Positions 8,676 to 57,663 of a stretch of DNA of 64,000 bases are shown piece after piece. Source of the DNA: Beroe forskalii (Eukaryota; Ctenophora; Nuda; Beroida; Beroidae); NCBI GenBank assembly GCA_011033025.1, contig WFMF01000220.1, positions 62,001 to 126,000 on the forward strand, written 5' to 3'. Positions within the stretch are counted from its first letter, which is position 1. Each line of letters begins with the position of its first letter. The position numbers and the translations under genes are program-made. Below the pieces are notes generated by a model, which worked only from the letters and a program-made list of their open reading frames with translations, was not told the origin of the DNA and searched no databases.

Positions 8676-8678
8676 GAG

Positions 8679-13700: not shown

Positions 13701-15985
13701 CCCACTAACTCCCGTACACTACAGGAGGACATGGTTCCCACTAACTCCCGTACACTACAGGTAGACATGGTTCCCACTAACTCCCGTACACTACAGGTAG
13801 ACATGGTTCCCACTAACTCCCGTACTTTTACAGGTAGACATGGTTCCACTAACTCCCTCACAATACAGGTAGACATGGTTCCCACTAACTCCGTACACAA
13901 CAGGTAGACATGGTTCCCACTAACTCCCGTACACTACATGTAGACATGGTTCCCACTAACTCCCGTACACTACAGTTAGACATGGTTCCCACTAACTCCC
14001 GTACACTACAGGTAGACATGGTTCCCACTAACTCCCCTTCACTACAGGTAGACATGGTTCCCACTAACTCCCGTACTTTACAAGTAGACATGGTTCCCAC
14101 TAACTCCCGTACACTACAGGTAGACATGGTTCCCACTAACTCCTGTACACTACAGGTAGACATGGTTCCCACTAACTCCCGTACACTACAGGTAGACATG
14201 GTTCCCACTAACTCCCGTACACTACAGGTAGACATGGTTCCCACTTACTCCAGTACACTACATGTAGACATGGTTCCCACTAACTCCCGTACACTACAGG
14301 TAGACATGGTTCCCACTAACTCCCGTACACTACAGGTAGGCATGGTTCCCACTAACTCCCGTACACAACAGGTAGACATGGTTCCCACTAACTCCCGTAC
14401 ACTACAGGTAGACATGGTTCCCACTAACTCCCGTACACTACAGGTAGACATGGTTCCCACTAACTCCCGTACACTACATGTAGACATGGTTCCCACTAAC
14501 TCCCGTATACTACAGGTAGACATGGTTCCCACTAACTCCCGTACACTACAGGTAGACATGGTTCCCACTAACTCCCTCACACTACAGGTAGACATGGTTC
14601 CCACTAACTCCCGTACACAACAGGTAGACATGGTTCCCACTAACTCCCGTACACTACAGGTAGACATGGTTCCCACTAACTCCCTCACACTACAGGTAGA
14701 CATGGTTCCCACTAACTCCCTCACACTACAGGTAGACATGGTTCCCACTAACTCCCGTACACAACAGGTAGACATGGTTCCCACTAACTCCCGTACACTA
14801 CAGGTAGACATGGTTCCCACTAACTCCCTCACACTACAGGTAGACATGGTTCCCACTAACTCCCGTACACAACAGGTAGACATGGTTCCCACTAACTCCC
14901 CTTCACTACAGGTAGACATGGTTCCCACTAACTCCCGTACACAACAGGTAGACATGGTTCCCACTAACTCCCTCACACTACAGGTAGACATGGTTCCCAC
15001 TAACTCCCGTACACTACAGGTAGACATGGTTCCCACTAACTCCCGTACACTACAGGTAGACATGGTTCCCTCTAACTCCCGTACACTACAGGTAGACATG
15101 GTTCCCACTAACTCCCGTACACTACAGGTAGACATGGTTCCCACTAACTCCCGTACACTACAGGTAGACATGGTTCCCACTAACTCCCGTACACTACAGG
15201 TAGACATGGTTCCCACTAACTCCCGTACACTACAAGTAGACATGGTTCCCACTAACTCCCGTACTTTACAGGTAGACATGGTTCCCACTAACTCCCGTGT
15301 ACTACAGGTAGACATGGTTCCCACTAACTCCCGTACACTACAGGTAGACATGGTTCCCACTAACTCCCTCACACTACAGGTAGACATGGTTCCCACTAAC
15401 TCCCGTACACTACATGTAGACATGGTTCCCACTAACTCCCGTACACTACAGGTAGACATGGTTCCCACTAACTCCCGTACACTACAAGTAGACATGGTTC
15501 CCACTAACTCCCGTACTTTACAGGTAGACATGGTTCCCACTAACTCCCGTACACTACAGGTAGACATGGTTCCCACTAACTCCCGTACACTACAGGTAGA
15601 CATGGTTCCCACTAACTCCCATACACTACAGGTAGACATGGTTCCCACTAACTCCCGTACACTACATGTAGACATGGTTCCCACTAACTCCCGTACACAA
15701 CAGGTAGACATGGTTCCCACTAACTCCCTCACACTACAGGTAGACATGGTTCCCACTAACTCCCGTACACTACAGGTAGACATGGTTCCCACTAACTCCC
15801 GTACACTACAGGTAGACATGGTTCCCACTAACTCCCGTACACTACAGGTAGACATGGTTCCCACTAACTCCCGTACACTACAGGTAGACATGGTTCCCAC
15901 TAACATTCTCCTCTACACCTCCCATGCCTTGTCTCGGTGGGGTGACAGAATGTGGAACTTTGCCATCGGTATCTTCCTTATCTAC
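10785..15985. repeat. Right arm of the large inverted duplication
   Basis: The reverse complement of this arm matches 1-5844 in the order MITE remnant (about 10790-11409), unique segment (11412-12240), 36-bp minisatellite, ferroportin exon start. The MITE copy here has lost a clean outer terminus. The minisatellite here is far more regular than its left partner, so the two arrays have evolved independently since duplication. Confidence 0.85.
12240..15883. repeat. 36-bp minisatellite, right array (about 100 units) ending on the ferroportin exon
   Basis: Units contain CACTACAGGTAGACATGG and CCCACTAACTCCCGTA. From about 12960 they are almost perfectly in register. Recurrent variants include CTTTACAG, CACAACAG, CTCACACTACAG and CCTTCACTACAG, sometimes in repeated higher-order runs. 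The last CAG (15881-15883) is the best acceptor for the ferroportin exon, so each unit is a copy of that exon's splice site plus its first bases. The open frame 13910-15883 joins ferroportin in frame, but it is best explained by a period divisible by three. Confidence 0.95.
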
Positions 15986-17440
15986 CTGCACCCTACTTCT
16001 CTCCTCGTCACTGCCATCTACCTCCTCATTAACCGGCTCTTTGTCCTCCTCCTGTCCGGTCCCATTGGACAGAAAGTGGACAGGTTACCGGAACGGCTGC
16101 ACGCCATGAGGACAGCCCTCGTCATTCAGAACAGCTCCGTGGCGTTCGCTGCCATTCTGACGGTGCTAGCGCTGCACTTTCACATCTCCTACCAGTGCGA
16201 ACGGACCCTGTTTTTCGTCATCATGGTCTTCATCACGCTGCTCGGGGTGATCTCAGTCCTCAGCAGTTCGGCTACTAAGATGATCATAGAACGGGATTGG
16301 GTGGTGGTCCTATGCCACAACGACTCAGACCAACTGAGTTCCATCAACGCTAACATGCGACGTATCGACCAGGTGTGTCTCCTGCTGGCTCCCATCCTAG
16401 CTGGTGCCTTCATGTCCGGCCTCAACACCACCTGGGCTGCAGGACTCATTGCTGTCTGGAACGTCGTGTCTTTCTTCGTGGAGTACTCTCTCCTGTGCAT
16501 GGTTTATAACCGGGTTCCAGAGCTGGCAACTAAAGAAGTTCCTGTGGAGGAGGCAAGTCCTGGGACGGATCAGACTTCTTCTTGTAGCTGTCTTACGGTC
16601 GTAAAGCGGTCCATCCTCTCCTTCTTCGGTAACTTCTCCATTTTCATGGGCCAGGAAGTAGCGTTGCTGGGCGTCTGTCTGTCTCTCGTCTACTTGACGG
16701 TCCTCGGCTTCGGTTCGGTTACAGTGGGTTATCTTCGTCTCAACAATGTCCACGATCTGTACATTGCCATAGCGATGGCAGTGGGGGCCTCGTTTGGTAT
16801 CCTAGGAACTCTCTGCTACACTCCATTCACGAAGAAGTTCAGCGTGTCTGCGTGTGGCGCCTTTGGGGCGGTGTGTCTGGCTGTTAGCTACGGAGTAAGT
16901 CTGGGCAGCAAAGCCTTCCCTCGTAACGCAGACCTGAAGTCCTTCTCCCAGACATCATCAGATAACAATACCTGTGGGGCTCCTGTCGGTAACTCTCTCA
17001 ATGATATCTCTGAGGGTTCCATCAACTCACACACCATAACGATCCTCGTTGGTATTACAACCATCCGCTTCGGGCTTTGGATCTACGATCTGGCAATATC
17101 CCAGCTCTTCCAAATGTCGGTGCCTGAGCCCCAACGGAACACGGTGGGCGGTATCCAGAGCTCCCTGAACAGTTTCTTCGACTGCTTCTACATCGTCCTT
17201 ACAGTCATCATGTCGGAGCCGGAGCAGTTCGGCATTCTGATCATCATATCGTGTGTGGCGTGCATCGGTAGCTGTCTTATCTACATTTGCTGGTTCATCA
17301 AAACGGGAGGATTACAGGAGGACAAACTGAAGACGAAACAAAACGAGAAGGAACTGGAAGTGGTGGAGGCTGAAGCTTCTGTTGTTGCTGCTAATAGGGC
17401 TGCGGATGCGGGTTCAGTTGCGGCTTTTAGTGATATTTGA
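15884..17440 (+). CDS. SLC40A1: Ferroportin (SLC40A1-like iron exporter), main coding exon
   Basis: Encodes about 518 residues of a ferroportin-family transporter, the plasma-membrane Fe2+ exporter of animals, running from the first membrane helix to the stop. Numbering from the ATG at 15890, family signatures are SRWGDRMW (16-22), ERDWVVV (134-140), NANMRRIDQ (153-161), TVLGFGSVTVGY (270-281) and FGLWIYDLAISQL (394-406). There are about ten to twelve hydrophobic segments and a charged lysine/glutamate tail. Human D39, N174, R178 and D181 correspond to D19, N153, R157 and D160, all kept. H43, D325, C326 and H507 are replaced by N23, G275, S276 and Y434. Human ferroportin has 571 residues; the missing N-terminus is about 20 residues. 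An upstream exon is expected, or translation may start at the repeat-derived ATG. The start is therefore uncertain. The body is one exon. Confidence 0.93.
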   Translation, partial: VDMVPTNILLYTSHALSRWGDRMWNFAIGIFLIYLHPTSLLVTAIYLLINRLFVLLLSGPIGQKVDRLPERLHAMRTALVIQNSSVAFAAILTVLALHFHISYQCERTLFFVIMVFITLLGVISVLSSSATKMIIERDWVVVLCHNDSDQLSSINANMRRIDQVCLLLAPILAGAFMSGLNTTWAAGLIAVWNVVSFFVEYSLLCMVYNRVPELATKEVPVEEASPGTDQTSSCSCLTVVKRSILSFFGNFSIFMGQEVALLGVCLSLVYLTVLGFGSVTVGYLRLNNVHDLYIAIAMAVGASFGILGTLCYTPFTKKFSVSACGAFGAVCLAVSYGVSLGSKAFPRNADLKSFSQTSSDNNTCGAPVGNSLNDISEGSINSHTITILVGITTIRFGLWIYDLAISQLFQMSVPEPQRNTVGGIQSSLNSFFDCFYIVLTVIMSEPEQFGILIIISCVACIGSCLIYICWFIKTGGLQEDKLKTKQNEKELEVVEAEASVVAANRAADAGSVAAFSDI

Positions 17441-17570
17441 GGGACTTTTAAGGGTGTTATTTTCTGCATGTACCTCTAAGAATTCAATATGTAGGTATCT
17501 TTATTATGTCTTTATAGGATGATTTATTCTAATCCTCTTGTGAGTTTTTGTTCATTTCATTTTATAATCC

Positions 17571-17576
17571 AATAAA
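17571..17576 (+). promoter_or_regulatory. Poly(A) signal of the ferroportin gene
   Basis: AATAAA 130 bases after the stop codon, in AT-rich DNA, followed by T-rich sequence. Confidence 0.7.
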
Positions 17577-18867
17577 CAGTTTTCTTTTATATCATTATCA
17601 TTTGTTTTATTACTAAAGTACTATTACTAACGAGCGGATACTGTACTAAGAACTCTAAGTATGTTGGTGTAACCTCACCGAGAAATTCAACTTATTTCCA
17701 AGTCGAGTGGCTGCACTCGTGGAAATTACAGAATTATTCTCTGATGTGGCTATATCTATACCCAAACAGCTGTGTATATATGTGTGTATTTACACACAAA
17801 CAAGCAGGGAAAATAAATTGAACAAATTGTCCTTGTACAAAAAAAATCCGTCATTCATAACAATATCTTATGATTGTGAATGATTTTTAGCATTCCAATT
17901 CCTTTTAAAGTCTAATATTTGTCTCGTTTTCAGGCAGTTCTCTGTGCGCAAGATGAGCAGGTTCCAACAGTCAAATACTTGTGGCGGAAGGAGTCCCCTG
18001 CTGTGGCTAAAGCATAACAACCTCCATGGAATGTTGCTGCGGCTAAAAAATTTCATGACTGCAGCGTACATCCGAGTTGCGTGTTCGTGCTGAGTGGTCA
18101 AAAGAGGACCTGCACTGATATTCTGATTATTTAATACAGTACACTCTATCGCTTTATAATCGGGACATAATTTGGTTGGACAAGACATGGGCTCTGGAGG
18201 CCTCTGTGCCCATAATTATAAGAAAATAGATCCGGCCATGAAATGCCCGCCCATAATATTAATAATTATCCGTCCAATAGTGTCGGGTTTCCGTTTAGCA
18301 ATTTATTTGCAAAGACTTACAGCCTTATCTATCTTTAATGGCTATATTGTTTCGTCTTATCAATATCATTATCAATATCACTATCAGTTCGTCTAGTCAA
18401 TAGCTGTCATTCGTACCCATTGGTGACCCAAAATGCTAGCAATAACGCGCCGGGGCCTTTCAGTTTCTGCTAATTCGACTTTTTATGAGTTTTTGATTCA
18501 AAATGAAATTGGTTTTGAAAAAATTTCATAATTTCTGTATATGCATTGTTGGACTGCGCAGTTGTATTTCTCTGAGTATGCGATTGCCATGCGATGAACT
18601 TGAGATTGAACGTGGAAATGAAATTTTATGTATATCATTGATCATTATATTTATCAGGGTGTCTGTTTTATGTCATAATTGAAATATGTTATGGGGCGTG
18701 TATTAACCTATTTTGTTATTTCAATTTCTGAAAGATGTGATCATAACGGAGTATCAGGAAATATCGTTGTCACTATTTTGATTTATCTTTGATGAGAATG
18801 AATAAATTTGCCCTCATTTTATTTTGTAGAGCTTCAGTTATAAAATGTAACTCCTTTCATTTCATTC
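17577..18867. other. Intergenic, no gene recognised
   Basis: AT-rich DNA with short open frames only. I see no splice-flanked coding block, RNA gene or ordered repeat. Confidence 0.5.
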
Positions 18868-21800
18868 TAACGCATATGTGTGCAGATCGCTCGATACGGA
18901 GGGCCCGATAACCTAAACCTTACAATTGCATTTAACACTTGCGCGCGCAACTCTTTTATACAGTAAGTTACTGTATAAAGAGTTGCATATAAAAGTGTTA
19001 ATATATAAACGATTTACATGTCGAAGTGGTGACCGTATACCGCAACTTACATGGTCGAGGCGACAGCCGAGACTGTGTAAGTTGGATAATGGACGAGGCG
19101 TGCCGAGTTCATTATCGAAGGTATACGGTCACAGCTGAAATCATGGAACCGGATTGTACCCCGACCGGAAATAGCTTTGGCCGACTATTTTCTGGCCAAA
19201 CAACAGTATTTCTTCCCACTCGGGTCTGACGACCCTCGTCCGGATTCAACGCTTAAGTAGATTTTTGAGTGCTCCTTTATAAAATCAAATTTCATTTTAA
19301 GCTTTTTGACACTGTCATTCAGTGGAGACCATTATAATAAGCGGTTACATGTCAGTGGTGACCGTATACCGCAACTTACATGGTCGAGGCGACAGCCGAG
19401 ACTTTGGATGGATAATGGACGAGGCGTGCCGAGTTCATTATCTAAGGTATACGGTCACATCTGAGATCATGGAACCGGATTACTCACCGACCGGAAACAG
19501 CTGGGACTTACTATTCTCTGACCAAACAACAGTATTTCTTCCCACTCGGGTCTGACGACCCTCGTCCGGATTCAACGCTTAAGTAGATTTTTGAGTGCTC
19601 CTTTATAAAATCAACTTTCATTTTTAGCTTTTTTTGTACTGTAATTCAGTGGAGACCGTATAACCAAACTTACACGGTCGCTAAAACAAGCATGGGAGGG
19701 GTATAACCAAACTTACAAGGTCGCTAAAAAAAAGCTTGGGAGGGGTATAAATATAATAAGCGGTTACATGTCGAAGTGGTGACCGTATACCGCAACTTAC
19801 ATGGTCGAGGCGACAGCCGAGACTGTGTAAGTTGGATAATGGACGAGGCGTGCCGAGTTCATTATCGAAGGTATACGGTCACAGCTGAATCATGGAACCG
19901 GATTATACCCGACCGGAAACAGCTGGGGCCTACTATTATCTGACCAAACAACAGTATTTCTTCCTACTCGGGTCTGACGACCCTCATTGCGGATTCAACG
20001 CTCAAGTAGATTTTTGAGTGCTCCTTCATAAAATCAAATTTCATTTTAACCTTTTTTGCACTGTAATTCAGTGGAGACCGTATAATATTTAATAAGCAGT
20101 TACATGTCGAAGTGATGACCGTATACCGCAACTTACATGGTCGAGGCGACAGCCGAGACTGTGTAAGTTGGATAATGGACGAGGCGTGCCGAGTTCATTA
20201 TCGAAGGTATAACTATACGGTCACAGCTGAGATCATGGAACCGGATTATACCCCGACCGGAAATAGCTATGGCCGACTATTTTCTGACCAAACAACAGTA
20301 TTTCTTCCCACTCGGGTCTGACGACCCTCGTCCGAATTCAACAGCAAGTAGATTTTTGAGTGCTCCTTTATAAAATGAAATTTCATTTTAAGCTTTTTGA
20401 CACTGTAATTCAGTGGAGACCGTATAACCAAACTTACACGGTCGCTAAAACAAGCTTGGGAGGGGTATAACCAAACTTACACGGTCGCTAAAACAAGCTT
20501 GGGAGGGGTATAATAAGCGGTTACATGTCGAAGTGGTGACCGTATACCGCAACTTACATGGTCGAGGCGACAGCCGAGACTGTGTAAGATGGATAATAGA
20601 CGAGGCGTGCCGAGTTCATTATCGAAGGTATACGGTCACAGCTGTGATCATGGAACCGGATTATACCGACCGGGAATAGCTTTGGCCGACTATTTTCTGA
20701 CCAAACAACAGTATTTCTTTCCACTCGGGTCTGACGACCCTCGTCCGGATTCAACGCTTAAGTAGATTTTTGAGTGCTCCTTTATAAAATCAAATTTCAT
20801 TTTAAGCTTTTTTACACTGTAATTTAGTGGAGACCGTATAACCAAACTTACACGGTCGCTAAAACATAAGCTTGGGAGGGTATAATAAGCGGTTACATGT
20901 CGAAGTGGTGACCGTATACCGCAACTTACATGGTCGAGGCGACAGCCGAGACTGTGTAAGTTGGATAATGGACGAGGCGTGCCGAGTTCATTATCGAAGG
21001 TATACGGTCACAGCTGTGATCATGGAACCGGATTATACCCCGACCGGGAATAGCTTTGGCCGACTATTTTCTGACCAAACAACAGTATTTCTTTCCACTC
21101 GGGTCTGACGACCCTCGTCCGGATTCAACGCTTAAGTAGATTTTTGAGTGCTCCTTTATAAAATCAAATTTCATTTTAAGCTTTTTTACACTGTAATTTA
21201 GTGGAGACCGTATAACCAAACTTACACGGTCGCTAAAACAAGCTTGGGAGGGGTATAATAAGCGGTTACATGTCGAAGTGGTGACCGTATACCGCAACTT
21301 ACATGGTCGAGGCGCCAGCCGAGACTTTGTAAGTTGGATAATGGACGAGGCGTGCCGAGTTCATTATCGAAGGTATACTGTCATAGCTGAGATCATGGAA
21401 CCGGATTATACCCCGACCGGAAGCAGCTGGGACCTACTATTCTCGGACCAAACAACAGTATTTCTTCCCACTCGGGTCTGACGACCCTCGTCCGGATTCA
21501 ACGCTTAAGTAGATTTTTGAGTGCTCCTTTATAAAATAAAATTTTATTTTAACCTATTTTGCACTGAAATTCAGTGGAGACCGTATAATAAGCGGTTACA
21601 TGTCGAAGTGGTGACCGTATACCGCAACTTACATGGTTGAGGCGACAGCCGAGACTGTGTAAGTTGGATAATCGACGAGGCGTGCCGAGTTCATTATCGA
21701 AGGTATACGGTCACAGCTGAGATCATGGAACCGGATTATACCCCGACCAGAAATAGCTGGGACCGACTATTCTCTGACCAAACAGCAGTATTTCTTCCCA

Positions 21801-22029
21801 CTCGGGTCTGACGACCCTCGTCCGGATTCAACGCTTAAGTAGATTTTTGAGTGCTCCTTTATAAAATCTAATTTCATTTTAAGCTTTTTTGCGCTGTAAT
21901 TCAATGGAGACCGTATAACCAAACTTACACGGTCACTAAAACAAGCTCGGGAGGGGTATAATGTAAGGTTTAGGTTATCGGGCCTTCCGTATCGAGCGAT
22001 GTGCACACAGCACATTGACATATGCGTTA
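18868..22029. mobile_element. TIR-bounded element carrying a satellite array
   Basis: The left end (TAACGCATATGT, then TCGCTCGATACGGA and CCCGATAACCTAAACCTTAC) recurs inverted at 21961-22029, with a short insertion in the right copy. Inside are eight tandem monomers of about 330-420 bp and, at 18935-19000, a hairpin of ACTCTTTATACAGTAA-like arms. There is no transposase frame. Known elements that combine TIRs with internal tandem repeats are satellite-bearing MITEs, and that is the best fit. I could not read a clear target duplication beyond a possible TA. Confidence 0.75.
19005..21960 (+). repeat. Satellite of eight monomers with a conserved three-way-junction fold
   Basis: Monomers start near 19030, 19360, 19780, 20115, 20537, 20909, 21282 and 21612. 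Each opens with TGACCGTATACC and about 90 bases later has its exact complement GGTATACGGTCA (a 12-bp closing stem). Between them are two hairpins, one closed by CAACTTACA/TGTAAGTTG and one by GATAATG/CATTATC. Both are tipped by GAGGC..GCCGA. The remainder of the monomer shares ACTCGGGTCTGACGACCCTC and ACCAAACTTACACGGTCGC; the latter is present or duplicated in only some monomers. A 66-77-codon open frame recurs in several monomers but lacks any recognisable domain. Confidence 0.85.
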
Positions 22030-22079
22030 CCTAATGGTGTCTCGACTCAAGTTATTGGAGGCGCGACGTAATGGCTTCA

Positions 22080-22463
22080 CCTAACCAGGGGTGTCCGCGC
22101 GAGCAAGGCGCGGCGCGCGCGTAAAACTAGGGATCTGGTTGCTCTAACCAGATCCCTAGTTTTACGCGCGCGCCGCGCCTTGCTCCAAACCGCGACACCC
22201 CTGGTTAGGGGAAGGGATCTGGTTAGAGTCGAGTAACGTAATGGCCAGGGCGCCGCGCACTCCGTGCGCGAAACCAGGGTCCTTGTTGCCAGACCACTTG
22301 CTAAACACGTATATCCCTGTCTGCGTTGCGCGGCGCGCTTCCCCAGAACAGGGAAGCGCCGCGCGCGTACACACACCTATGCGGGCTTAGGAATGGTTTC
22401 GCGCACGCAGTGCGCGGTTGCTCTAAAGTCTAACCAGATCCCTAGTTTTACGCGCGCGCCGCG
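22080..22463. repeat. GC-rich foldback cluster
   Basis: Exact 40-base arms at 22101-22140 and 22146-22185 (ending GGGATCTGGTT / starting AACCAGATCCC) surround a 5-base loop. Outside them CCTAACCAGGGGTGT (22080-22094) pairs with 22195-22209. A second hairpin (GCGCGGCGCGCTTCCC) lies near 22329-22367. The AACCAGATCCCTAGTTTTAC block recurs at 22434-22453. CpG-rich islands of this kind stand out from the AT-rich surroundings and look like a foldback or MITE cluster. Confidence 0.85.
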
Positions 22464-23245
22464 TTTTGCTCGTTTCGTTGCATTAGCAACGAAAGTGTAA
22501 GTTTTTATTAAAATCATCACTGTTTAAATCGTAGGATGTTACCCTACCCTCGCGCGCGGCGCAACGCTCCACAGAAGAAATAGACGGGGCAACGTCCGTC
22601 GATGTTTAAATGGAAACAATCAAATAGACCTATCTTCAAATCAACACAAAAAATTTATTCTTTTAAACTGAACAATAACCATTGAAAATACTGAATTATT
22701 TACTCTTATTCAAATTGTCGGCAGCCGCGCGCGCCCGCCTAAGGCAGACAACGTCTGAAAATATTCGAAGGCCATTCACAACAGAGATATTCCATATTCG
22801 AATTTATTCAATTTATGATTATAGGAAAAAGCGAAACAGTCATATGAACTTGAAGGTAATTGTAAAATTTAAATGTATAATTTAATTTTATAACTTGAAC
22901 TTGAAATTGAAGGTTATTGTTTTAGTTTGAAAATGAATTGCAGTTTCCGAATCTTATGTACGGCGTACACTTACAGACTGAGCCATGTTATTCATCAGTC
23001 ATACGATTAGGTGAAAGTCTTAACGCCGGCAGCCGAGTACACTAAAGATTAAAAGACGGACAAAATGGAGGTCGAACTGCCCTTTTAAAAACATCGAAGA
23101 AAAATATGATTTACATACTGGAAACCATTCAAGGCAAGGAAATCAAGACTCAGCTGACATTTCAAAATGAAAAACGGGTACGCAGATATTAGAGTTACAA
23201 TCGCGCGTCTGGGAATGTTGTGTGACAAAAGGTTAAGGTCAAGGT
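22464..23245. other. Intergenic, no gene recognised
   Basis: AT-rich DNA with isolated GC patches (CGCGCGCGGCGCAACG near 22551, GCCGCGCGCGCCCGCC near 22724) that resemble the foldback clusters. No coding block was identified. Confidence 0.5.
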
Positions 23246-23665: not shown

Positions 23666-23949
23666 GGCTGTGGGCCAGGGTGGTTTTGTCCAACCAATAC
23701 GATCCAAAAAGGATGCCTATATTAAATAACTTGGTCACAATGACAAAAGCTGGCATTGATAAGGCACGCTAAGCAGTTTTATTTGATTCATTTGAAAACC
23801 ATATAACACTTCGTGTCAGTCTCAACCCCCAACTTCAAGTCCGCAAGTGCAACAGTTGACATCCAGCGTCGCTGTGCAGCAAATCAGATGTGCCATCAAT
23901 GTGAAACTGAAGCTCCTATCTGAGGAGTGAATAGGAGGAGATGTTCATT

Positions 23950-28956
<5,007 letters not shown>

Positions 28957-45690: not shown

Positions 45691-45844
45691 TTTTGTATGT
45701 TAATAGAAAGATAGAATACCTAAAATACAAGACAAAGGTTTATAAAATTTGGTCTTGCGGGCATATGTCAATTTCGACTTCTTTCACTTCTGTAGCCTAA
45801 CAGTTCTTTAGGTTTGACGTTGCTTCCTATTTGACAATGTTTAG

Positions 45845-47600
45845 CAAGGTTCAGATAAGATTGAAAATTGGTGCCTCATTATGATTTCACTTCAATTCTT
45901 GCCTATTTTCTACAAGACTCTTCAAAGCAAAATCATGGCAGCAACGTAAGTACAATGTTGGTAGGGGTCTGGGGGCGGCACCCCAGAAGCCAGACGTTCA
46001 AATTAGATTAAATTGGTACCTCATTATGATTTCACATCAATTTTTGCCTAATTTCTACAAGACTCTTCAAGGACAAAATCATGGCAGCAACGTAAGTACC
46101 ACAGTCCCTACAGTGTTAGTAGGGGATCTGGGGGCAGCAGCCCCCAGATGCCAGGCGTTTAGATTAGATTAAATTGGTTCCTCAATATAATTTCACTTCA
46201 ATTCTCGTCTATTTTCGACGAGACTGGTCGAGGAAAATTCACGGAAGCAACTTAAGTACGGTTCTAGGGACTAGGGAGAGGTCGGGAGCGGCAGCCCCCA
46301 GATGCCAGACGTTAAGATTTGAAATTGATTAAATTTGTGCCTCAATAGGATTTCACTTCAATTCTTGCCTATTTTTGACGAGACTGGTCGGAGAAAATCA
46401 CCACAGCGACTTAAGTACGGTGTTATGTAGGGGTCTGGGGGCAGCCCCAGAAGCCAGATGTTCGGATGAGATGAAAATTGGTGCTTCAATAGGATCTCAC
46501 TTTGAATCTTGCCCATTTTCGACAAATTTACGGATCGGGACGTTGAATAAGAGTCCCATAATTGTAATTAATGAGTACTTTATTTATTCTCTGATTCAGT
46601 GGTACACGTACAAATGGAAACGATGTGGTTCTTTACAATAATTATGCACCTTCCAGGCATGTTTTTGCTATGTATTCAAAAACCCTATAGGCACCAGGGT
46701 ACCGTGCGCAATAAATTATTACGCACTGAAGTGCCAAAATCAGGATTTATTACGCACTGTAGGTCATAATAATTTATTATGGTGTGCGTAATAATTTATT
46801 TCGCACAGTCGACCCAGTTGTAGCTTCATATCATAAATTAAAACATTTCCTTGTGTTTGAAATTATCTCCTTTTACGAATAATTACGGTGCATAATTCAG
46901 TTTATTAATTGTAAAAATTGCAAACCTCTGCAGTAAAAACCTCGGCCTTCGTCCTCGGTTTTAATGTGATATACACTGGTCGGCCTTCGGCCCGTGTGTT
47001 ATATCAAGGTTAGCAATTTTACCGTTACTAAACCCTTCAATTTCGTCGTTCTAAGACATCTTCAGGTCTCATATTTGATTGTAGAAAGTAGTTATGTAAA
47101 GTTTAAAACAGACTGGTCGAGAAAAATCCACGGCAGCAACTTAAGTACAGTGCTAGGCAGGGGTCTGTGGGCGGCAGTCCCCAAAGGCCAGCTGCCAGAC
47201 GTTTAGATTAGATCAAATTGGTTCCTCAATAGGATTTCACTTCAATTCTTGCCTATTTTCGACGAGACTGGTCGGAGAAAAATCACGGCAGCAACTAAAG
47301 TACGGTGCTATGCAGGGATTTGGGGGCGGCAGCCCCCAGAAGCCAGACGTTTAGATCAGATTAAATTGGTGCCTCAATAGGATTTCACTTCAATTCTTGC
47401 CTATTTTCGACGAGACTGATCGAGGAAAATTCACAGCAGCAACTTAATACAGTGCTAGGCAGGGGTCTGGGGGCGGCAGCCCCCAGAAGCCAGACGTTTA
47501 GATCAGATTAAATTGGTGCCTCAATAGGATTTCACTTCAATTCTTGCCTATTATCGACGAGACTGGTCGAAAAAATCACGGCAGCCACTTGAGACGTGCA
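45845..47600. repeat. Tandem array of about 150-165 bp units in the hAT-like element
   Basis: Roughly eight units share TCACTTCAATTCTTGCCTAT, GACGAGACTGGTCG, GGGGTCTGGGGGCGGCAG and CCCCAGAAGCCAGACGTTTA. The array is split by the interspersed element at 46643-47035. Confidence 0.85.
46643..47035 (+). mobile_element. Interspersed element nested in the hAT-like element
   Basis: Second copy of the element at 23246-23665, sharing ACCTTCCAGGCATGTT-type start, TTACGCACTGTAGGTCATAA and the AAAACCTCGGCCTTCG palindrome. It is also present, inverted, in the copy at 59.4 kb. Confidence 0.7.
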
Positions 47601-47994
47601 GTGCTAGTGAATTAAATTGAAGCTCCTAAATTTCTACCTACCCATTTTTTCTTATTTTTGACGAGACTAGTCAAATAAATATGATGGCCACAGTTCATCA
47701 AATGTTTCAAGATCTTTCAAATAAATCATACAAGTTATTTTTGGGCCTTTTTCAAATAAAATTCAGGTTTTTCCTGTTATCAAATATGGATATTTTACTT
47801 TAAAATCCTCGGTAAAATCCTCGGCAAATTTATAAAAACTCGGCCGAGGCCGAGGAGAATTGGGATTTAAAATGACCGAGGCCGAGGCATTCCGAGGATT
47901 GGCCATTCTGACCGAGGCCGAGGCCTCGGTAAAACCCCAATCCTCGGTGAAAACCGAGGCCGAGCCGAGGCCTCGGTCGATCCTTGTGTTTCAT

Positions 47995-49254
47995 TAAAAG
48001 TGTTGAAAAACTTGGCAATTGGCTGTGGCATATTATTCCCAATGATACCCAATATTCGATAATTGCATATTGTTGACCACAACCAAATCTTCATTTGATC
48101 AGGTCCTCTATCAGGAATCAAGGGCACCCATTTTTAAATATGTATGCCATGTGCCTTCTTTCCCCCCCCCCTCTTTATCAGATATTGAAACAGATGTGAA
48201 ATGAACTTATTGCACAAAGTGTCACCTCCACATTGCATGAACTGGAAGTTCCAAATTTGTAGATGTTTCAGTTTCCACCACAAGTCAGATCAAAGTTTTG
48301 GGCTAGGTAAACAAGCCAGCACTATTCAATCTTTCAAATGCATTGAATTTAAATATTTCCTTATTTTGCCTTTAGGCATTTGTTAAGAGAACTGTTCAAT
48401 CTTGAAGTTTGAAGTGACTTTTTGAGAATAAAAAGAAGTGTTAACTTGGTGAAGCACCAATGCACACTGTGGGAATTAGCTCAGGCACACAGATGGCACA
48501 CTGAGGGCATTAAGCACACTGGGGGCACACTGAGGACAAGCACACAGAGAGCAAACTGGGGGCACAATTCAGGCAAAAAGCACCTTGGGCAAAAATAAGG
48601 CACATAGAGGGCAAACTGAGGGCACATCTTGGGCACACTGAGGGCATTTTTATTGAATTTTCTTCTGCTTGCATTTTGTCAACATTGCCCAGCTGATTAA
48701 AAGTTACTGAATCTTGGGTCCTGCTATTTCGTCTCTAATCAACTTTTTGTTTTACAAAAAGGCATTTGGAAGCAAAGAGGAACCAGCATGTCAAATAGGA
48801 TAATGGATAATTACCTACATTATCAAGTTTCAATTTATGGTGGAAAATGTATCTTAATAGGTAGGTAATAGAACTTTAGAGGCATAAGACAAACTTGCAG
48901 AGAGCAGTCTGAGGCAATTATATAAGATTTTAATGTCAATAGTGCAGCTGAGACATCTAAATTATTTAGAGTGCAAGGCAAAGTGAAGATGAGCCAAGTG
49001 CTCTTAATCTTATTTCTGTGGTGAGTTTAAGCCTCTAAAGTACTGTAGTAGTTGAATGGTGTAAACAAGACACACCCTGTTCACCATTACAAAAAAGCAC
49101 ATACAGTAACTCAGCTGTTTTTAGCACCAACAGGGGAAGAAGCAAATTTAAGGGAAAGTTCAAGACAAATCAACATTACCTCCAAGGACCAAGCCCCTCT
49201 TACCTAACATCATTTTTTCACATAGGAAGGGTTACCTAGTCTAAAAAGTTTTCC
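47995..49254. other. Intergenic; short imperfect GGGCACACTGAGG repeats
   Basis: At 48475-48650 a loose repeat of GGGCACACTGAGGGCAC runs about ten times with drift. The rest has no recognised gene. Confidence 0.6.
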
Positions 49255-49760
49255 CTAGCTAATATTCTTTCTAAAACACGACACTATGTCGATGATCTTA
49301 TCACCACTAAATTATCTCAACTTTGAAGCTCTAATCAAACAAATCTATCATCCTTCTCTTGAAATGGAGAGGTCAGGTAATGACAACAAGAACGTGAACT
49401 ACCTGGACCTCAATATTTCTATCCAACCAAGCAAGGTTATTTAAATGTGTCTGTATATAGTTCAAGACCAATGACTTTAATTTCTCTGTAGTTTCCTTAA
49501 CATTTCCACGGAGTAATATCCCACTAGAAGTAGGCCATAATGTATTTTATAGTCAAAACCTTAGGTATGCCAACATTTGTACTGAATTTGGGACTTTCAT
49601 TTTCAATCTTAAAAAAGTTTTCCAAAAACTGATTGAAAGAGGATATAGTAACTCCAATCTTGTAGACATCATTAAATGTTGCCTAAATAAGAAAAGCTTA
49701 GTTTTTCAAAAATATGCCATTTCAGATAACAGTATAATTTTAAATCAATTTGATTAGGTA
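49255..49760 (+). pseudogene. Decayed reverse-transcriptase fragment (Penelope-like or related retroelement)
   Basis: The frame beginning TCTAAAACACGA codes RHYVDDLITTKLSQL, the catalytic YxDD box, then stops. One frame later comes IYHPSLEMERSG and NVNYLDLNISIQ, the segment that follows the box in Penelope-like reverse transcriptases. Farther on are RYANICTEFGTF and LIERGYSNSNLVDIIKCCLN. Several frameshifts and stops break it. A LINE-type origin is possible. Confidence 0.6.
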
Positions 49761-50704
49761 TTGAACTGTGAGGTTCTCCACATTCTGTACTGGTTTTTTG
49801 TTCAACTTGTTGCTGACCTTGAGCAACTTGCTGTATGATTAGCCTGGGACTGAATGTGGGGCTGGACAGGCAGATGCCTGTAACTTCCCATTCATTTTAA
49901 CTTTCACTTTCAGGTTTTAAATAGTGTATCATTAAGATGTTTCACCCCATTTTAACACTCATTGATCTTTTGCACATTTCCAACTATATGTTTTCAATAA
50001 TCTATATGAAGAAGCTTCTTGACTGTGCTGAAGGAAAGCATTCGCATTCAGTCAATCACTATCACTTATAAATTAGTTTACCCATCAATTTTGACCTAAA
50101 TTATGGGCAAAACAAGTTTAAAGCTCATATCTCCAAAAATGTGGCCATAATGGCCATCTTTAGGCCCAAAATAGGCCAACTGCCACTTTAATTTGGCATG
50201 CATGCTTTGCAAGGCCATAACTTGGCCATTTTTCATCAAATTTTGACAAACAAATACACTAAAATCAGCTCATAGGACAAATCGAATGCTTGAAAAGCTA
50301 AGCTCTATCTCTATCAGGTAAAAATTCGATTTTTGGGCACCATTTTCACTCTGAAGCCTCACATGGGCAATCCGCAAAGTTGAACCTATGGACTCAAGAC
50401 CACCATCAAAATGTTGGTACACGTCCAGGCCACAGGCCATCCTGGCCAACTCCTATCCCAAATTCGTGTTTTCCAAAATATCAGGGTTGAACCCCCCCTC
50501 TCTTGAAAAGTTTCCTAGAAAACATATCATTATTGCTCAACTGTAGTGACTCATTATTTAGGAGGTGAAAATGATCGGTGATGGAGCCTGTCTTAAAGGC
50601 AAATATCCCTTGATGTGACAAATTCAGTTTTTCATCCATTGAGTATCAAGATATCAAGCAAACAGTCACAAAATTAGCTTTCCAATAAACCATGATGCAT
50701 TTCA
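49761..50704. other. Intergenic, no gene recognised
   Basis: AT-rich sequence, possibly more decayed retroelement. Nothing I can support. Confidence 0.45.
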
Positions 50705-51009
50705 GGGTCTCAGATCAAATTGGAACTACAACAGAATGGGTTAAGTGCACTCATGTTGGCTTTTCTCCTAATGATTACAGTACTACTGAAGCTCTACAAT
50801 GTCAGTTCAATGAAAATCTTGGATATTTTCATTGTGTGGAATTCCGTATGAATGGCTGTGGAACTCTACATGTCAACTTGGATCAATTCAGTGACTATGG
50901 CAGAAACATGCCACTAGAGAGTGGTGGAATTCATGAGTTTGAAGGTCCTGGACACAAAAAATGGTGTAAAGGCAGTGGGTCAAACGACTTTGATAACAAT
51001 ATTTGGTAA
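50705..51009 (+). CDS. Possible terminal exon, unknown cysteine-containing protein
   Basis: An acceptor (GATGCATTTCAG, 50693-50704) precedes about 100 open codons ending with TAA. The peptide has spaced cysteines (VKCTHVGF, LQCQFN, FHCVEF, NGCGTLHV, KKWCKG) and no membrane segment. I do not recognise a domain. No upstream exon was found, and a decayed retroelement lies 1 kb upstream, so it may be a fragment. Confidence 0.3.
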
Positions 51010-51139
51010 ATTGTCTGTTGTCTCTTATTGCAATTTTGATCTCATTTCGAAATTTAATAGTTTAGGATTTGACGTGTTGTCAATTGTTCATCTTTTCATC
51101 TCACCAGAAGCCATAGCACGGGGTTTAATTTTGCTTGCC

Positions 51140-51520
51140 CAGTTGCCCGAATGCCCGGCCCGGCCCTAAATTTATTGCCAGACGTTGTCTGCCCTTGTCA
51201 GGCGTTGCCTGACCCCCTCGCGCGCGCGCGCCACGACTCGCGACTTAAAATTTTAAATAATGGGTCTGACGACGTCAGACAAGTCTGCCCCATATTTTTT
51301 TCGTCCCGACACTGCGAGTCGGGGCGCACGTTGTTGTCAGGCGTTGCCTGACCCCCTCTGACGACGTCAGACAAGGCGCGCGCGCTTCGCGCGCGCGAGG
51401 GGGCCAGACAACGCCTGGCAATAAATATTAAATTTAAATGTGACCGTCTTGCTTGTCAGGCGTTGCCTGACCATGACCCCCTCGCGCGCGCGCCACGACT
51501 CGCAGAGTCGTGACTACGGT
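51140..51520. repeat. GC-rich foldback cluster with GTCAGGCGTTGCCTGAC motifs
   Basis: Repeated short palindromes (GTCAGGCGTTGCCTGAC at three sites; CTGACGACGTCAG at two) alternate with GCGCGCGCG tracts and CACGACTCGC / GCGAGTCG pairs. GCCAGACGTTGTCTG near 51178 and CCAGACAACGCCTGGC near 51402 are mutually inverted outer blocks. This is similar in style to 22080-22463. Confidence 0.8.
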
Positions 51521-52431
51521 GTTCTAAAAGGGCCAAATTGAAAATAGTTATATGGAATATTTACTATTTGATACCTATTCGATACCTATTTGATACCTAT
51601 TTTTCGTTTGGCCCCTTTGGAACAGCATCGTTCCTGGGAAGAAGAAATTGGCCCCTTTTAACAAAATTAATAAAAATTTTCATATTGTCTGTCCAACAAG
51701 GGGGAGGCAGCCGCCTGTGTCACCTTCCCCCTGGTTACGCCCCTGCAAGTGTGCCTAGAGCGGAGTTTTCTTTTACCTGAGCTATCAATAAATTACCCCA
51801 GGTATAACTTCAAATTATTACGGTCAGTGCTATCGATCAAAGCAATAGCTCGAATCTGGTAATTAAATTAGAGGTATTACCCGGGCAATTGTTCGAGCAA
51901 GGAAAGTAATAACGCTTTCCGAGCTATCGTTCAAGCAATTGCTCCTTTGAAATCCTGTTGAAAGCAGGCTTTTGAAAATTCTGTGCAAAAAACGGTTTAA
52001 AAAAGGGCGATCAAAAAGAAAAAATGAATCGGCTAGATTTAAATTTAATGGCCATTTAGTTTTGAGATTTCGTTGAATCTTCACCTTCTTCATTCATCTG
52101 TTTTCATTTACAATTTTCTTTTATCCCAAATTTTTTTTCTTATTTCTCCTTTTGTTCTTTCTTATCCTTTTCGTTTTAATTCGTCTTATTTAATTTTCTT
52201 ATTTAATTTGTCTTATTTAGTTTGTCTTTATTTAATTTTTCAAATTAATTATTTTTTTGTTGAAATTTCAATTTTTGCCAGCGCGGTAAATTAGCCGATA
52301 TTTTATTTTTTATGGAATGCGCGAAAAAATATTTATTGATGATGTTGCGCGCACGCGAAAACACGTTGGCGTACCTGGTACACGAAAAATTTTTAAAAAC
52401 ATGTTGGCGTACATGAAACACCATAGTTACC
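51521..52431. other. Intergenic, T-rich tracts, no gene
   Basis: Includes pyrimidine-rich DNA at 52070-52260 and no recognisable coding block. Confidence 0.5.
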
Positions 52432-52667
52432 GTATTCTACCCAGTTTTCAGTGACCGTATTCTACTCTGCGTTCGTTGATTGGAATCCAATCAACGAACA
52501 TCAACACAGAGTAGTAAACAGTCAAAACGCCTTGATAGGAATCCAATCAACGAACACCGAGTTGAATACGGTAACGAAACCTTAATTGGAATCCATTCAA
52601 CGAACACCGAGAAGAATACGGTAACAAAACCTTGTAGGATACGGTTACTGAAAACTGGGTAGAATAC
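52432..52667. mobile_element. Small foldback element (MITE-like)
   Basis: 29-bp inverted ends at 52432-52460 and 52639-52667 (GTATTCTACCCAGTTTTC / GAAAACTGGGTAGAATAC) with one mismatch. Inside are three direct copies of GGAATCCAATCAACGAACA-like units, the first being part of a perfect ATTGGAATCCAAT palindrome. No clear target duplication. Confidence 0.75.
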
Positions 52668-53845
52668 AGACGCGCATGACGCAGATGTCTTGAGCACGCC
52701 CAGTCAAACTCACCAAAACGTACTAAAACGTAACGTACGGTATCATTAAACCTTATCGGAAATAATTATCACGGACCTTAGTTTCACCGACCCAAAACTT
52801 CATGGACATTGATATCACTCTTGTTCTTGCCACTTCAGATTTTTCATCAAAATTTCGAAATATAAGGCTCGATTTTCCCACTTTATTCACGATTCGAATA
52901 CTTGAATTGAAGATTTTTCAATATTTTTCGATTATTTACCAGAAACACAATATTTTCTTCTCTTTATTTCATTTTCAATCAGAATATAAAATTATTACAA
53001 TTAAAATTAATCAACTGATACAATTTGATCAGAAGCATATCATATCTAGAAACAATATCACTTTCGATGATTTATCAAAATCAGCCGACAGCCACAGTAC
53101 AATATGGATGGATTGAACTGAATAACCATAAATGAGTCGTAAATTCAAATATGCTTTAACCATTAATTAATCATTAACATAATTATAAGTTAAATTGTTG
53201 TATAAAATTGCGTAGCAGATTTAAGTAGCACAATATCAATGCTACAATCTTATTCTAAACAATAATTAAAAAATCACAGCTTGACAATTGTCATGTCCGT
53301 CCTTTGAATAGGCGTAGCTGGTGTCTAAGATGGTAATATTTACAACATATGTACAGCTCAAATTATCTTAACATTCATGATATCATCACCATGACCTTAT
53401 CAATCCTAAGTCCAGATCAGCGATTTCGTAGTACGTGGTCATCGAAATGAAAGTGATTCTCTCGCATCGTTGAAAGAGTCCCGATTTGACAATTCATATG
53501 CGCACACTACACATGCCATCAAATTATCGGTAGCAAATCCGCCCGTATAGGTCTATTCGGCATTCGCGCTCTGATTGGTCAATATTGTAACGATTCGGAA
53601 CCCCACGGGTAAGTTATTTCAACATTAAACACAATTATCATACACCTACAGAGCTATCACAAATGAAATAACATCGAACAAACAACCGTGTGGTGTGAAC
53701 CTAGCTCTCTCGATCTCGCCTCAGTTCGGCTGACATTGTATCTATCTGAATCTGGTTGTCCTACAACACCTTCGTCTCTATTCTGGATCTGATTGGTCAG
53801 CTCACGTTTCTGATTCTCTGATTGGTTGCTGCACTGCGACTCCAT
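52668..53845. other. Intergenic and semaphorin 3' flank
   Basis: No gene recognised. The right end should be the semaphorin 3' UTR. Confidence 0.5.
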
Positions 53846-56800
53846 TCATACGATTGACTGTCCATCTGCATCCTGGTCTGCTGACATGTTCTTAAAAACA
53901 ACGGCGTGCTGTGCTGAACTCTCGTCCCCCCTAACTACAATTTCTGACACGGAGAGGGGATCACTCGTCCCTATGCGAGGATCTGCTGTAGACATCGGAG
54001 TTCCGGGATCCACTATGGGGTTCTTGTCGTCTGATGAGTTGCTCCGGACATTGTTGCTGTTGGGGGCCGTGTTTCGCATCTGTTCCTGCAGAGACTTGCG
54101 GAAATCAACCTGAACAGGGGGTAGTGTCAGGAATCCCTGGTAACTGAAAGAACAGCAATATCAGGGGTGCCAGAATGCAAATGGGAATCAAGAGGATTGT
54201 TTAAAACTAGAATACATATTATGCTTTGTGAGCCGATCTCAAGCCTCAAGAAAAATGTGAGTTTCAGACAAATTTTTAGAAAAATGTGATTTTTAGACAG
54301 TTAGATGGAAAATGAAGGAAAATTACTATTCTTGTTATTCACCAACACGTAATCATCTGATTATGGAACATATTACAGAATCAAGGCAAGTAATCAAAGT
54401 CAGACAGGAAGGCAAGAAAAACATTTAAATGTCGTAGAACTTGACATCGGCACACAACGGTGACATAGCGACAAATATAATTGTGAGATAGTGGCGACAC
54501 AGTAAGACAGATTTCGGATGCCACAACTCAATAAGGCAAAGAAACAAAAGCAGATGGAAGGCCAAGACCCAAGACAAACTATAATTAGCACAAAATGGAC
54601 ATAGAAAATGCAATACGGAAATACAAAATGAAGGATGCGATGGAGATAAAACTATTCCTCATGAACACAGAGAAGATAAGAGGCACCAAGAAGTTGGTAA
54701 CAGAAGTAAGTAGTAACTAACAAAGAACTGAAGAAGTAACTAAGAAGTAAAACTTGCTGAGAAGTGACTAAGTGAAAGTGCAGTAACACTTGCTGAGAAG
54801 TGACTAAGTGACTAAGTGCAGTAACACTTGCTGAGAAGTGACTATAAAGTGACTAAGTGCACTATTACACTTGCTGAGAGTAACATACCGGAGGAAGCAC
54901 ATGGACGATATGATGGGAGTCAGGGGAGGTAACTGTTTTGTCGGCAGTCCGGGGAGGGGCCGTCTTGTCGTTGCTAAGTGAGGGTGGTTTCCCAGAGTGA
55001 GACTTCTCAAGGAAGGGCGTGGAGGGGCACACGTGACACGACTAGAAACACAAAACACAGGTACGGTATGTGATCATGCATGACACCGCACTACACAACG
55101 ATCAGAAAAACATTGAACTGTATTTCATCATAGACGAGAGACACCGATTAGATGGTTGGTGATTAAATTTCAAAATACTGCTGATTTGAATCAGTTTGTA
55201 TGATTGATATCTAAATGTTCGCTTATTCTGGACTACTATCCACTTGATCAAAGAAAACATGAGAAATCAGCAGTACGTACTACGCATATATTGAACAAGG
55301 ATCTAATGCTCTAATGACAGTAACTTACCCTGGCCTTGCCCCTGCAGATGTAGAAGTGTGTGCCGAGCACCACACATCCTGCCACAGACACGCCCACAAC
55401 CACTAGGAGCGCTATCTCTAGAGTAGTAAGGGCCGGGGCACGGTTTATCACTGGGGCTGTGGTAGAAGGACGGTCCACGCAATCTGTGGGTGAGAACGGT
55501 GGTTACTTCATAATTTGAGGTTTTTACGCTGCCAATCAAAAACAATTGGATAGATCATCATGTTCTTATTGTAGCACTAGCATGTTGATACAGGCACTAG
55601 GCAACGTATGGTAATGCTATTGATGAGACAAAAGTTAGAACGTCGCGCGCTTCCTTATTCGGCTTCCGAATTGGATTATTTCTACCATCTAATAATCTTT
55701 TCACCAGGATGATATCATTCTGATCAAGTGAAACTGGAAGCATAGTAGGCTTATTTTCTGTAAGGGTGTGAGGGTATACGAACTAACCTCTGTAAGATGT
55801 CGTTGTGACGTAGGAGGAGTTAGGGAAGTAAGTGTAGGTGACGTCAGCAAAGAACATGTCGTGGATACAGACACTCCCTGGCGCTAGGAAAGTGTACTCA
55901 GTCGGGAATAGGGTGGAGAAGGAACCAGCATCCAGATCCTGGACGCAGTCCTCTGATTCTGTGCACTGAGGGAGGGAGGGGTTAGAATCTAAGAAACAGA
56001 GAGACGCAGTCCTCTGATTCTGTGCACTGAGGAAGGGAGGGGTTAGAATCTTAGAAACAGAGAGACGCAGTCCTCTGATTCTGTGCACTGAGGAAGGGAG
56101 GGGTTAGAATCTAAGAAACAGAGAGACGCAGTCCTCTGATTCTTTGCACTGAGGGAGGGAGGGAGGGGTTAGAATCTAAGAAACAGAGAGACGCAGTCCT
56201 CTGATTCTGTGCACTGAGGGAGGGGTTAGAATCTAAGAAACAGAGAGACGCAGTCCTCTGATTCTGTGCACTGAGGGAGGGAGGGGTTAGAATCTAAGAA
56301 ACAGAGAGACGCAGTCCTCTGATTCTGTGCACTGAGGGAGGGAGGGGTTAGAATCTAAGAAACAGAGAGACGCAGTCCTCTGATTCTGTGCACTGAGGGA
56401 GAGAGGGGTTAGAATCTAAGAAACAGAGAGACGCAGTCCTCTGATTCTGTGTACTGAGGGAGGGAGGGGTTAGAATCTAAGAAACAGAGATGCAGTCCTC
56501 TGATTCTGTGCACTGAGGGAGGGAGGGTTAGAATCTAAGAAACCTGGACGCAGTCCTCTGATTCTGTGCACTGAGGGAGGAGGGTTAGAATCTAAGAAAC
56601 AGAGAGACGCAGTCCTCTGATTCTGTGCACTGAGGGAGAGAGGGGTTAGAATCTAAGAAACAGAGAGACGCAGTCCTCTGATTCTGTGTACTGAGGGAGG
56701 GAGGGGTTAGAATCTAAGAAACAGAGAGACGCAGTCCTCTGATTCTGTGCACTGAGGGAGGGAGGGGTAAGAATCTAAGAAACAGAGAGACGCAGTCCTC

Positions 56801-57663
56801 TGATTCTTCGCACTGAGGGAGGGAGGGGTGTTAGGTGTGTGATTAATGTTTGGAGATAGAGAGATAGCTAGCTTATACTACACACAACAACGTAATGTAC
56901 TGAGTCAGGAATGCCCAATTCTAATCAGAACTAAGCGGTTATTAGGAATAGAGCAGAAAGGGGTGTTACTGGAGACTAGGGGTTGTCGCTCGGATGCAGA
57001 AACTTTTGGATAGAAGAATTGGGCAATGGGCTTTGGGGCATGGGCACTTTTAAAAAATTAAAAAATCGCTTACTCACCGCTGATCAGTGATCACTGATCA
57101 GTACTGATTAGCGCCGATCGGCGATTTTGCAAAGTGTTAAGTAGCTTGTTTTAGAAAATGATGCTGATAGTCAGCATTCTACCGATATGGAAACCCTGGC
57201 TTACCTGGTTAGTAGGAACACAGTTGTTGTGTTCTTTAGAGTAGGAACAGCTCGGGTCCATGGCACCAACGCAGGAAACTGGATCCTGGGAGAGTTTGAA
57301 ATACAATAAAGATATCTGTTAAAAATGAGAGAATTATTGAAAAATGAGAACATTAAAATTTCAGGAATTAACCCTATAAAGCCATATAAAGAAGGTCATA
57401 TAAGAAGCCACATAAGAAGGTCATGATCATTAATTTCAAGCCACCTACGCTACGCTAGGATAGGATCACGCGATAAATCAGAATTACCTGTCCGTAGTAA
57501 GAACACCAAGTTGTCGGTATCATCGTGGCACTGGTATCTGATGTCAGATAGATCGTATCATTCGCTATAGACATTGTCCTGGGCGTTTCCTTCAGCACCA
57601 TCTCGCTCAGCAACCGACCTTTAGCAGCCGGCGATCTGGTGTCGTAGACATACAAAGTGTCCT
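53846..57663 (-). CDS. Transmembrane semaphorin, last six exons (5' part outside the window)
   Basis: Exons: 57488-57663, 57205-57285, 55788-55965, 55329-55483, 54889-55041, 53846-54136. Phases agree at every join. The first ends a sema propeller (DTLYVYDTRSP; MVLKETPRTMSIANDTIYLT; TTWCSYYG). The second carries the PSI knot (SCVGAMDPSCSYSKEHNNC), matching the family's C..C.GARDPYC pattern. Then come a Cys-containing linker, a single membrane helix (LEIALLVVVGVSVAGCVVLG) followed by THFYICRGKAR, and a disordered tail of about 148 residues. There is no Ig or thrombospondin domain between PSI and membrane. Semaphorins signal through plexins in cell guidance. The upstream sema exons were not found to 59.4 kb and presumably lie beyond the transposon. 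The third exon's acceptor is tandemly amplified. Confidence 0.87.
54725..54882 (-). repeat. Short minisatellite immediately inside the last semaphorin intron
   Basis: On the minus strand the intron opens GTATGTTACTCTCAGCAAGTG. Then TCACTTCTCAGCAAGTGTTA recurs about three to four times with CACTTAGTCACTT spacers. The array starts within about six bases of the donor at 54888. Confidence 0.85.
55941..56829 (-). repeat. 61-bp minisatellite over a semaphorin splice acceptor (about 15 units)
   Basis: The minus-strand unit is CTCCCTCCCTCAG (acceptor), then TGCACAGAATCAGAGGACTG (the first codons of the next exon, CTESEDC). It continues into CTCTGTTTCTTAGATTCTAA, which carries a second acceptor-like TTCTTAG. 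The copy closest to the coding exon (55961-55965) opens the real exon. Nearly all upstream copies keep a perfect polypyrimidine tract and CAG. Confidence 0.94.

Follow-up and report, generated by a model that had tools for sequence, protein, structure and literature searches.

Minisatellites with units that straddle exon-intron boundaries recur in genes of the ctenophore Beroe forskalii

A ferroportin (SLC40A1-like) gene, PACRGL and a semaphorin/plexin-like gene lie in a 64,000-nucleotide stretch of the genome of the ctenophore Beroe forskalii (assembly GCA_011033025.1, contig WFMF01000220.1, positions 62,001 to 126,000 of the forward strand; the whole of this stretch is termed the window). 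In PACRGL and the semaphorin-like gene, and probably also at ferroportin, there are minisatellites whose repeat unit comprises the last or first 4–50 bases of an exon, its splice site and bases of the adjacent intron. The exon-proximal copy forms the edge of the exon and is intact; the remaining copies are intronic. An earlier reading of the window, made without database searches (the sequence-only reading), had pointed to four such arrays and to a fifth close to a junction, and Tandem Repeats Finder (TRF) recovers all five where it had placed them (Table 1). The presence of an exon end plus splice site in the unit is firm for the two PACRGL arrays and for the semaphorin-like one, and the ferroportin acceptor is a candidate.

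PACRGL exons 2 and 3 cover consecutive parts of the Pfam ParcG profile. The edge of exon 2 is CTCCTCCTCCATTTAGCTGAG/GTACCTTCTAG (here and below a slash marks the junction), and there are 13 such sites, the real edge included, with a spacing that is mostly 40 bp; 21 bases of the exon fall inside the array. The edge of exon 3, CAAAGCTGCCCTG/GTAAGTTC, gives 5 such sites, one every 52 bp. Here 50 bases of the exon are inside the array and 48 of the 52 bases of the unit are exonic. The putative next exon, placed by eye, starts CTTCAG/ATGTCC and is in phase with the exon-proximal exon 3 donor. [Antisense within a PACRGL intron is an open frame of 612 codons that is C2H2 zinc-finger-like (25886-27721, plus strand; best Pfam score just below the cut-off), with a 33-bp repeat at 26911-27083. 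Between ferroportin and PACRGL, at 19014-21918, are 326-373 bp tandem repeats with no relation to junctions.]

In the semaphorin-like gene it is an acceptor that is repeated. The 61-bp array fills 864 bp of the intron 57204-55966, and most of its units have CTAAC, a pyrimidine tract, CAG and the exon start TGCACAGAATCAGAGGACTGCGTC, with at least 24 exon bases in the unit. Three exons of the gene, when joined, show similarity to SEMA6A and Plexin-A4 at the sema/PSI end (E about 1e-3 by phmmer), and two exons searched singly have no match in Pfam. The fifth array is in another intron of this gene and starts about 10 bases beyond the junction, not the six or so first read. [A pair of inverted 147-160 bp tandem repeats at 45849-47986 and 59442-61616, 97% identical and with another copy 11-14 kb left of the window, is probably a mobile element.]

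The identity of the ferroportin exon is secure (PF06963, E 2.1e-110; SLC40A1 structures, E 2e-65). Its start is not fixed by homology, since the reading frame is uninterrupted from 13889 to 17437 (1183 codons), which takes it 2 kb up into the 36-bp array, and the acceptor is thus a deduction from the unit. The unit reads CTAAC-TCCCGTACACTA-CAG/GTAGACATGG. With its CTAAC, pyrimidine-rich stretch and CAG it is fourth of 61 repeat families on an acceptor motif (p 0.013), and the array probably straddles the ferroportin acceptor. That it is instead coding or 5′ leader sequence, with VDMVPTNSRTLQ repeated, is a tenable minority possibility for this gene: the unit equals 12 codons, which with the long open frame allows a translated or leader repeat, and every unit holds an ATG followed by G. 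The same array stands beside an inverted second copy of ferroportin, at 8390-9982 of the neighbouring sample L002 and 95.8% identical. Both copies are in an inverted duplication (6.8-kb alignment, 89.6% identity), so the array is older than the duplication; the two arrays are unequal in length in this one assembly, 4.3 and 3.5 kb. [The duplication relates window positions -2934 to 5838 to 10784-18868 (contig 59066-67838 and 72784-80868), with about 89-90% identity. The left ferroportin copy appears broken near its start, and a third, partial copy (80%) is farther left.]

Table 1. Arrays and associated exons in the window (positions are those of the window)
Feature	Position	Strand	Basis
36-bp array, ~98 copies, candidate ferroportin acceptor	12367..15904	+	TRF
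Coding exon of ferroportin (SLC40A1-like), 518 codons assuming a start past the last CAG of the array	15884..17437	+	
Same 36-bp array beside inverted second ferroportin copy	76..4385	-	TRF
40-bp array, ~13 copies, across PACRGL exon 2 donor GCTGAG/GTACCT	28121..28652	-	TRF
PACRGL exon 2, 51 codons, 3′ end within 40-bp array	28632..28784	-	Pfam PF10274 (ParcG) profile 2-44, E 2.3e-8
52-bp array, ~5.7 copies, across PACRGL exon 3 donor CCCTG/GTAAGT	25351..25644	-	TRF
PACRGL exon 3, 45 codons, 3′ end within 52-bp array	25595..25729	-	Pfam PF10274 (ParcG) profile 46-89, E 4.5e-9
61-bp array, ~15 copies, across semaphorin/plexin-like acceptor	55942..56829	-	TRF
Semaphorin/plexin-like exon, 5′ end repeated in 61-bp array	55788..55965	-	phmmer on three joined exons
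Preceding PSI-like exon of semaphorin-like gene	57205..57285	-	
36-38 bp array in other semaphorin-like intron, non-straddling	54732..54879	-	TRF

The sample extends beyond the window to 166 kb in 17 further stretches (L numbers), altogether about 230 kb of an assembly of 216 Mb in 1134 contigs. Five of the 17 adjoin the window and the others are on other contigs; L012 and L018 were placed at matches of a kinase-domain search (135 matches), L013 near one, and the rest arbitrarily. An array was scored as straddling when its edge is 3-80 bp inside an exon and its body crosses the junction. Straddling arrays are present in seven genes and probably in two others, one of them ferroportin. The names CDK7, AKT, SGK and CLU are what we take the genes concerned to resemble, having recognised them by eye. 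In the CDK7-like gene (L012) the acceptor CACTTCCCCAG/TTGTTGGACGTG is straddled by a 42-bp array and the donor ACTCAG/GTCTGT by a 24-bp one; the two straddled exons match Pkinase below the Pfam cut-off (E 3e-7 and 0.008) and another exon of the gene passes it (E 1e-9). In the CLU-like gene (L011; eIF3_p135 E 3e-25, PF13236 E 0.004 and below cut-off) some 34 copies of a 30-bp unit cross the donor GTTACCAG/GTTAAT. Copies of 21 bp are at the donor CCGG/GTAGGT of the SGK-like kinase gene (L004), three exons of which match Pkinase; the straddled exon itself has no Pfam match. A two-copy 25-bp repeat (L018 3520-3571) is at the donor AATCACAG/GTTATT of the AKT-like gene (exon named by eye), and a 25-bp array at the donor CCACCCTG/GTAAGT of a laminin-G/coiled-coil frame (L009; PF13385 E 1e-12). 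A probable acceptor in L005, CTCGTCAG/GTAACTCTG, is where a 29-bp array (about 95 copies) ends; the open frame that follows has no match in Pfam.

[The L005 gene segment with its 29-bp array is present twice, about 12 kb apart, and the second copy, in L006, adjoins a THAP-like open frame. A 33-bp array at 1213-1550 of L010 stops 23 bp before a tetraspanin-like acceptor; it is non-straddling and was scored as a miss. Over 3 kb of L014 (4435-7834) a 20-bp family, AGATGAAGTGTCGTACCCTG-like, forms several arrays in both orientations.]

Whether such arrays are at junctions beyond expectation was judged against the same arrays placed at random within the same loci. In a first count (50 junctions located out of 52 contexts) 10 were straddled versus 1.83 expected (P 2e-4), 7 donors and 3 acceptors of unrelated genes, with the ferroportin acceptor a predicted one. 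Outside the window the figures were 6 of 41 versus 1.52 (P 0.005), and on other contigs 5 of 29 versus 1.18 (P 0.007). A second count had more junctions and was stripped of the three noticed through their arrays (those of ferroportin, laminin-G and tetraspanin, which are excluded from all strict sets). It gave 8 of 55 versus 1.95 with the window (P 5e-4) and 5 of 39 versus 1.41 outside it (P 0.011); the window alone gave 3 of 16 versus 0.54 (P 0.014), the PACRGL and semaphorin cases being the original finding itself and retained nonetheless. [With a 3-30 bp overlap cut-off the second count is 7 of 55 versus 0.92, a cut-off chosen post hoc, so the 3-80 bp figures are the ones quoted.] Not counted were the first CDK7-like donor (no array seen), the two junctions of PACRGL exon 4 (no arrays), most junctions of a 30-35 kb gene, and the 29-bp array beside the THAP-like frame, because its acceptor is unclear and L006 duplicates part of the L005 gene. 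The recurrence that the sequence-only reading saw at junctions thus exceeds random placement, with strong support when the window is included and moderate support outside it.

The units themselves carry splice signals more often than matched background does. When repeat units were scored with a general 5′ splice-site matrix against length-matched unique segments, p<=0.02 was reached by 8 of 61 repeat families, versus 1.2 expected, and none of 150 column-permuted matrices gave as many as 8 (mean 1.8, maximum 7); an earlier run on fewer loci had 6 of 59 families at p<=0.011. With a motif of branch-point, pyrimidines and AG, the CDK7-like, L005, semaphorin-like and ferroportin families are the top 4 of 61 (p 0.003-0.013), the CTAAC motif having been framed after three of its arrays were seen. 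With the motif mirrored, a single family is at 0.02, and next comes the CDK7-like array at 0.053.

The straddling arrays are not symmetrical about the junction. Their exon-side edges are 4, 6, 13, 13, 14, 21, 21, 23, 24 and 50 bp inside the exons, and their bodies are intronic. A profile of 20-mers that have a near copy within 600 bp, taken over 50 junctions, is at 0-2 of the 50 at 20-90 bp inside the exon, at 6 by 10 bp inside, at 8 at the junction, at 8-10 over the initial 200 bp of intron and at 5-8 farther on (the exonic counts climb to 6 beyond 90 bp, where short exons have run out). Near-copy density is therefore an intronic plateau with no peak at the junction. By the edges just inside exons and this plateau, each array has its anchor at a junction and extends into the intron; the arrays are not ‘centred’ there as had been claimed.

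The lack of a peak is one of a number of points that weigh against a special affinity of arrays for junctions. Array edges number 10 in the exon bin, 0 within the first 10 bp of intron, 2 at 10-50 bp, 4 at 50-130 bp and 1, 2, 3 and 5 in later bins to 450 bp, some being counted from both ends; the 370-450 bp bin (5 edges, 22 eligible junctions) matches the exon bin in density, with 0.23 and 0.21 edges per junction respectively, which speaks against a sharp peak. In the first count the two kinase-chosen loci gave 3 of 22 versus 0.94 (P 0.063). As the CLU-like exon had first been examined for its array, and only later met in the list of coding segments, a third count, outside the window, was made without that gene: 4 of 34 versus 1.25 (P 0.035). 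When at least 2.4 copies are required there are 3 of 39 (P 0.060), 2 of 34 if the CLU-like gene is also omitted (P 0.19), and 2 of 32 for the three kinase genes (P 0.16), for which the figure at all copy numbers is 4 of 32 versus 1.16 (P 0.031). The donor excess fades at looser cut-offs, with 9 families at 0.05 (5% of permuted matrices do as well) and 10 at 0.1 (27%); five of the eight donor-rich families have no link to an identified exon end, and the donor arrays of PACRGL exon 2 and of the CLU-like and CDK7-like genes miss the threshold. Ab initio scoring for coding plus splice signals was weak in two runs, 7 and 9 of 69 at p<=0.05 versus 3.45 (second run outside the window, 5 of 51 versus 2.55). 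It is low-powered, since random placements in coding DNA score well, and in the second run it misplaced the sites of the ferroportin and semaphorin-like arrays. In addition, the sample is small, the splice sites in all arrays are predictions from sequence, and the junction list was compiled by eye. With a hand-made list, and an excess outside the window that fades under stricter cuts, the independent evidence for an excess at junctions is moderate. This fragility in the third count and the ferroportin acceptor being a deduction are why the original observation is confirmed only in part.

These results bear on plain chance, namely that where minisatellites are many and introns short some arrays must touch junctions. 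There are 137 merged arrays in the 230 kb and the median known intron is near 230 bp, and the fading just described is in its favour. The 8 straddled junctions of 55, where 1.95 are expected, and the donor and acceptor motifs in units above matched background make it an unlikely, though not a trivial, explanation. Boundary-straddling arrays are a recurrent feature here, and probably one above chance.

If the spare copies served splicing, by making it robust at weak sites or by regulating it, their splice sites should be kept. GT or AG is kept in most copies, and some straddled donors are weak (GTACCT, GTTAAT, GTTATT), while two are the strong GTAAGT (PACRGL exon 3 and laminin-G). Variation in the splice-site window was compared with that in all other windows of the unit for eight arrays. 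The share of windows equally or more conserved is 0.42, 0.63, 0.07, 0.96, 0.85, 0.97, 0.55 and 0.43, so that the splice-site window is not specially conserved in seven of the eight and falls in the most conserved tenth in one only, the CLU-like donor (top 7%). The final G of CAG is altered in 11% of ferroportin copies. Copy variation fits neutral drift of spare copies, and selection for redundant sites, which the sequence-only reading had offered as one cause, seems quite improbable. Nor is frame a general constraint, as unit length is divisible by three in only 5 of 11 arrays.

The arrays are best regarded as ‘mirages’, a class named in amphioxus: minisatellites with a unit that straddles an exon-intron boundary, spread by local duplication that splicing hides (we put the probability at about 0.68). 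Where homology identifies the exon its end is conserved, so copying went from the exon, as source, into the intron, with the array as the product. The boundary would be copied by local tandem duplication, through replication slippage or microhomology-mediated repair, and the array would then expand and homogenise by slippage or unequal exchange. It may be tolerated because one intact splice site suffices for the same mRNA. Exon and intron ends of some units share a few bases, AAG in PACRGL exon 3 and TCAG in the CDK7-like donor, as expected for microhomology and as seen by inspection.

The same duplications could be considered as intron gain in progress, with duplicated exon pieces that have AG/GT creating introns (the Rogers model, and the globin model of amphioxus). 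CAG/GT is present in several units (ferroportin, L005 and CLU-like), and the model is laid out in PMC3087553. Against it, the straddled introns divide consecutive conserved domain blocks in PACRGL and the kinases, and the arrays start from one intron end. The AKT-like intron at R/LGGG is presumably common to human, and intron gain is on balance very improbable.

For the mirages themselves, the junction excess, if upheld, would reflect either a mutational preference or survivorship, in which the exon-bound copy cannot decay and keeps seeding fresh copies as deep-intron arrays fade. The proposal of the sequence-only reading that a mechanism seeds repeats at junctions is compatible with the data and is not separated from survivorship by them. 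A bolder form, that splice junctions are true hot spots for tandem duplication in this lineage, with genome-wide seeding at about 1 junction in 7 and introns steadily lengthened under the cover of splicing, is tentative and on present evidence doubtful.

The sequence-only reading knew of no named system of this kind; there are published ones. Variable minisatellite repeats, their units 30 bp long on average, are known from human segmental duplications, where some of them are at exon-intron boundaries (PMC2812944). Those are linked, in primate paralogs, to new introns and to alternative transcripts, whereas here the introns divide conserved domain blocks. In potato RdRp an intron was reportedly gained by a tandem genomic duplication that includes splice signals (PMC4974935); that duplication creates a new intron, and here existing introns are lengthened. 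Worm minisatellites have been linked to multiple alternative splicing, with boundary-spanning units unmentioned in the part of the paper that was available (PMC4039745), and the corresponding part of PMC2206037 does not mention minisatellites. The boundary minisatellites found in print are reported one gene at a time, and a genome-wide enrichment test of boundary arrays was not found in a literature search that most subscription papers were beyond the reach of. The value of the present case is in the apparent abundance, which makes the cause of a junction preference testable. With about 13% of the sampled junctions outside the window straddled, such a genome would also offer a natural set for study of how the spliceosome chooses among near-identical sites. 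For annotation, such arrays can mislead gene finders into false exons or misplaced exon ends.

The closest counterparts are the mirages of amphioxus, tandem copies of exon-intron boundaries in Adh3 and in the globins BflGb6 and BflGb9 (PMC3087553), to which PMC3902484, citing those of Adh and TnC, added one in PGBD5. The units are 10-72 bp in Adh3, 60 and 108 bp in PGBD5 and 150-160 bp in the globins; the class is known from cephalochordates and is characterised by undisturbed regular splicing of the mRNA and by a length that is unstable between haplotypes or in somatic cells. The Beroe arrays are like them in anatomy and unit size, being minisatellite-like copies of boundaries, both donors and acceptors, in unrelated genes. 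They differ in having up to about 98 copies (at the candidate ferroportin acceptor), in the number of genes involved, and in being known from sequence alone. Lancelet genomes are about twice the size of this assembly.

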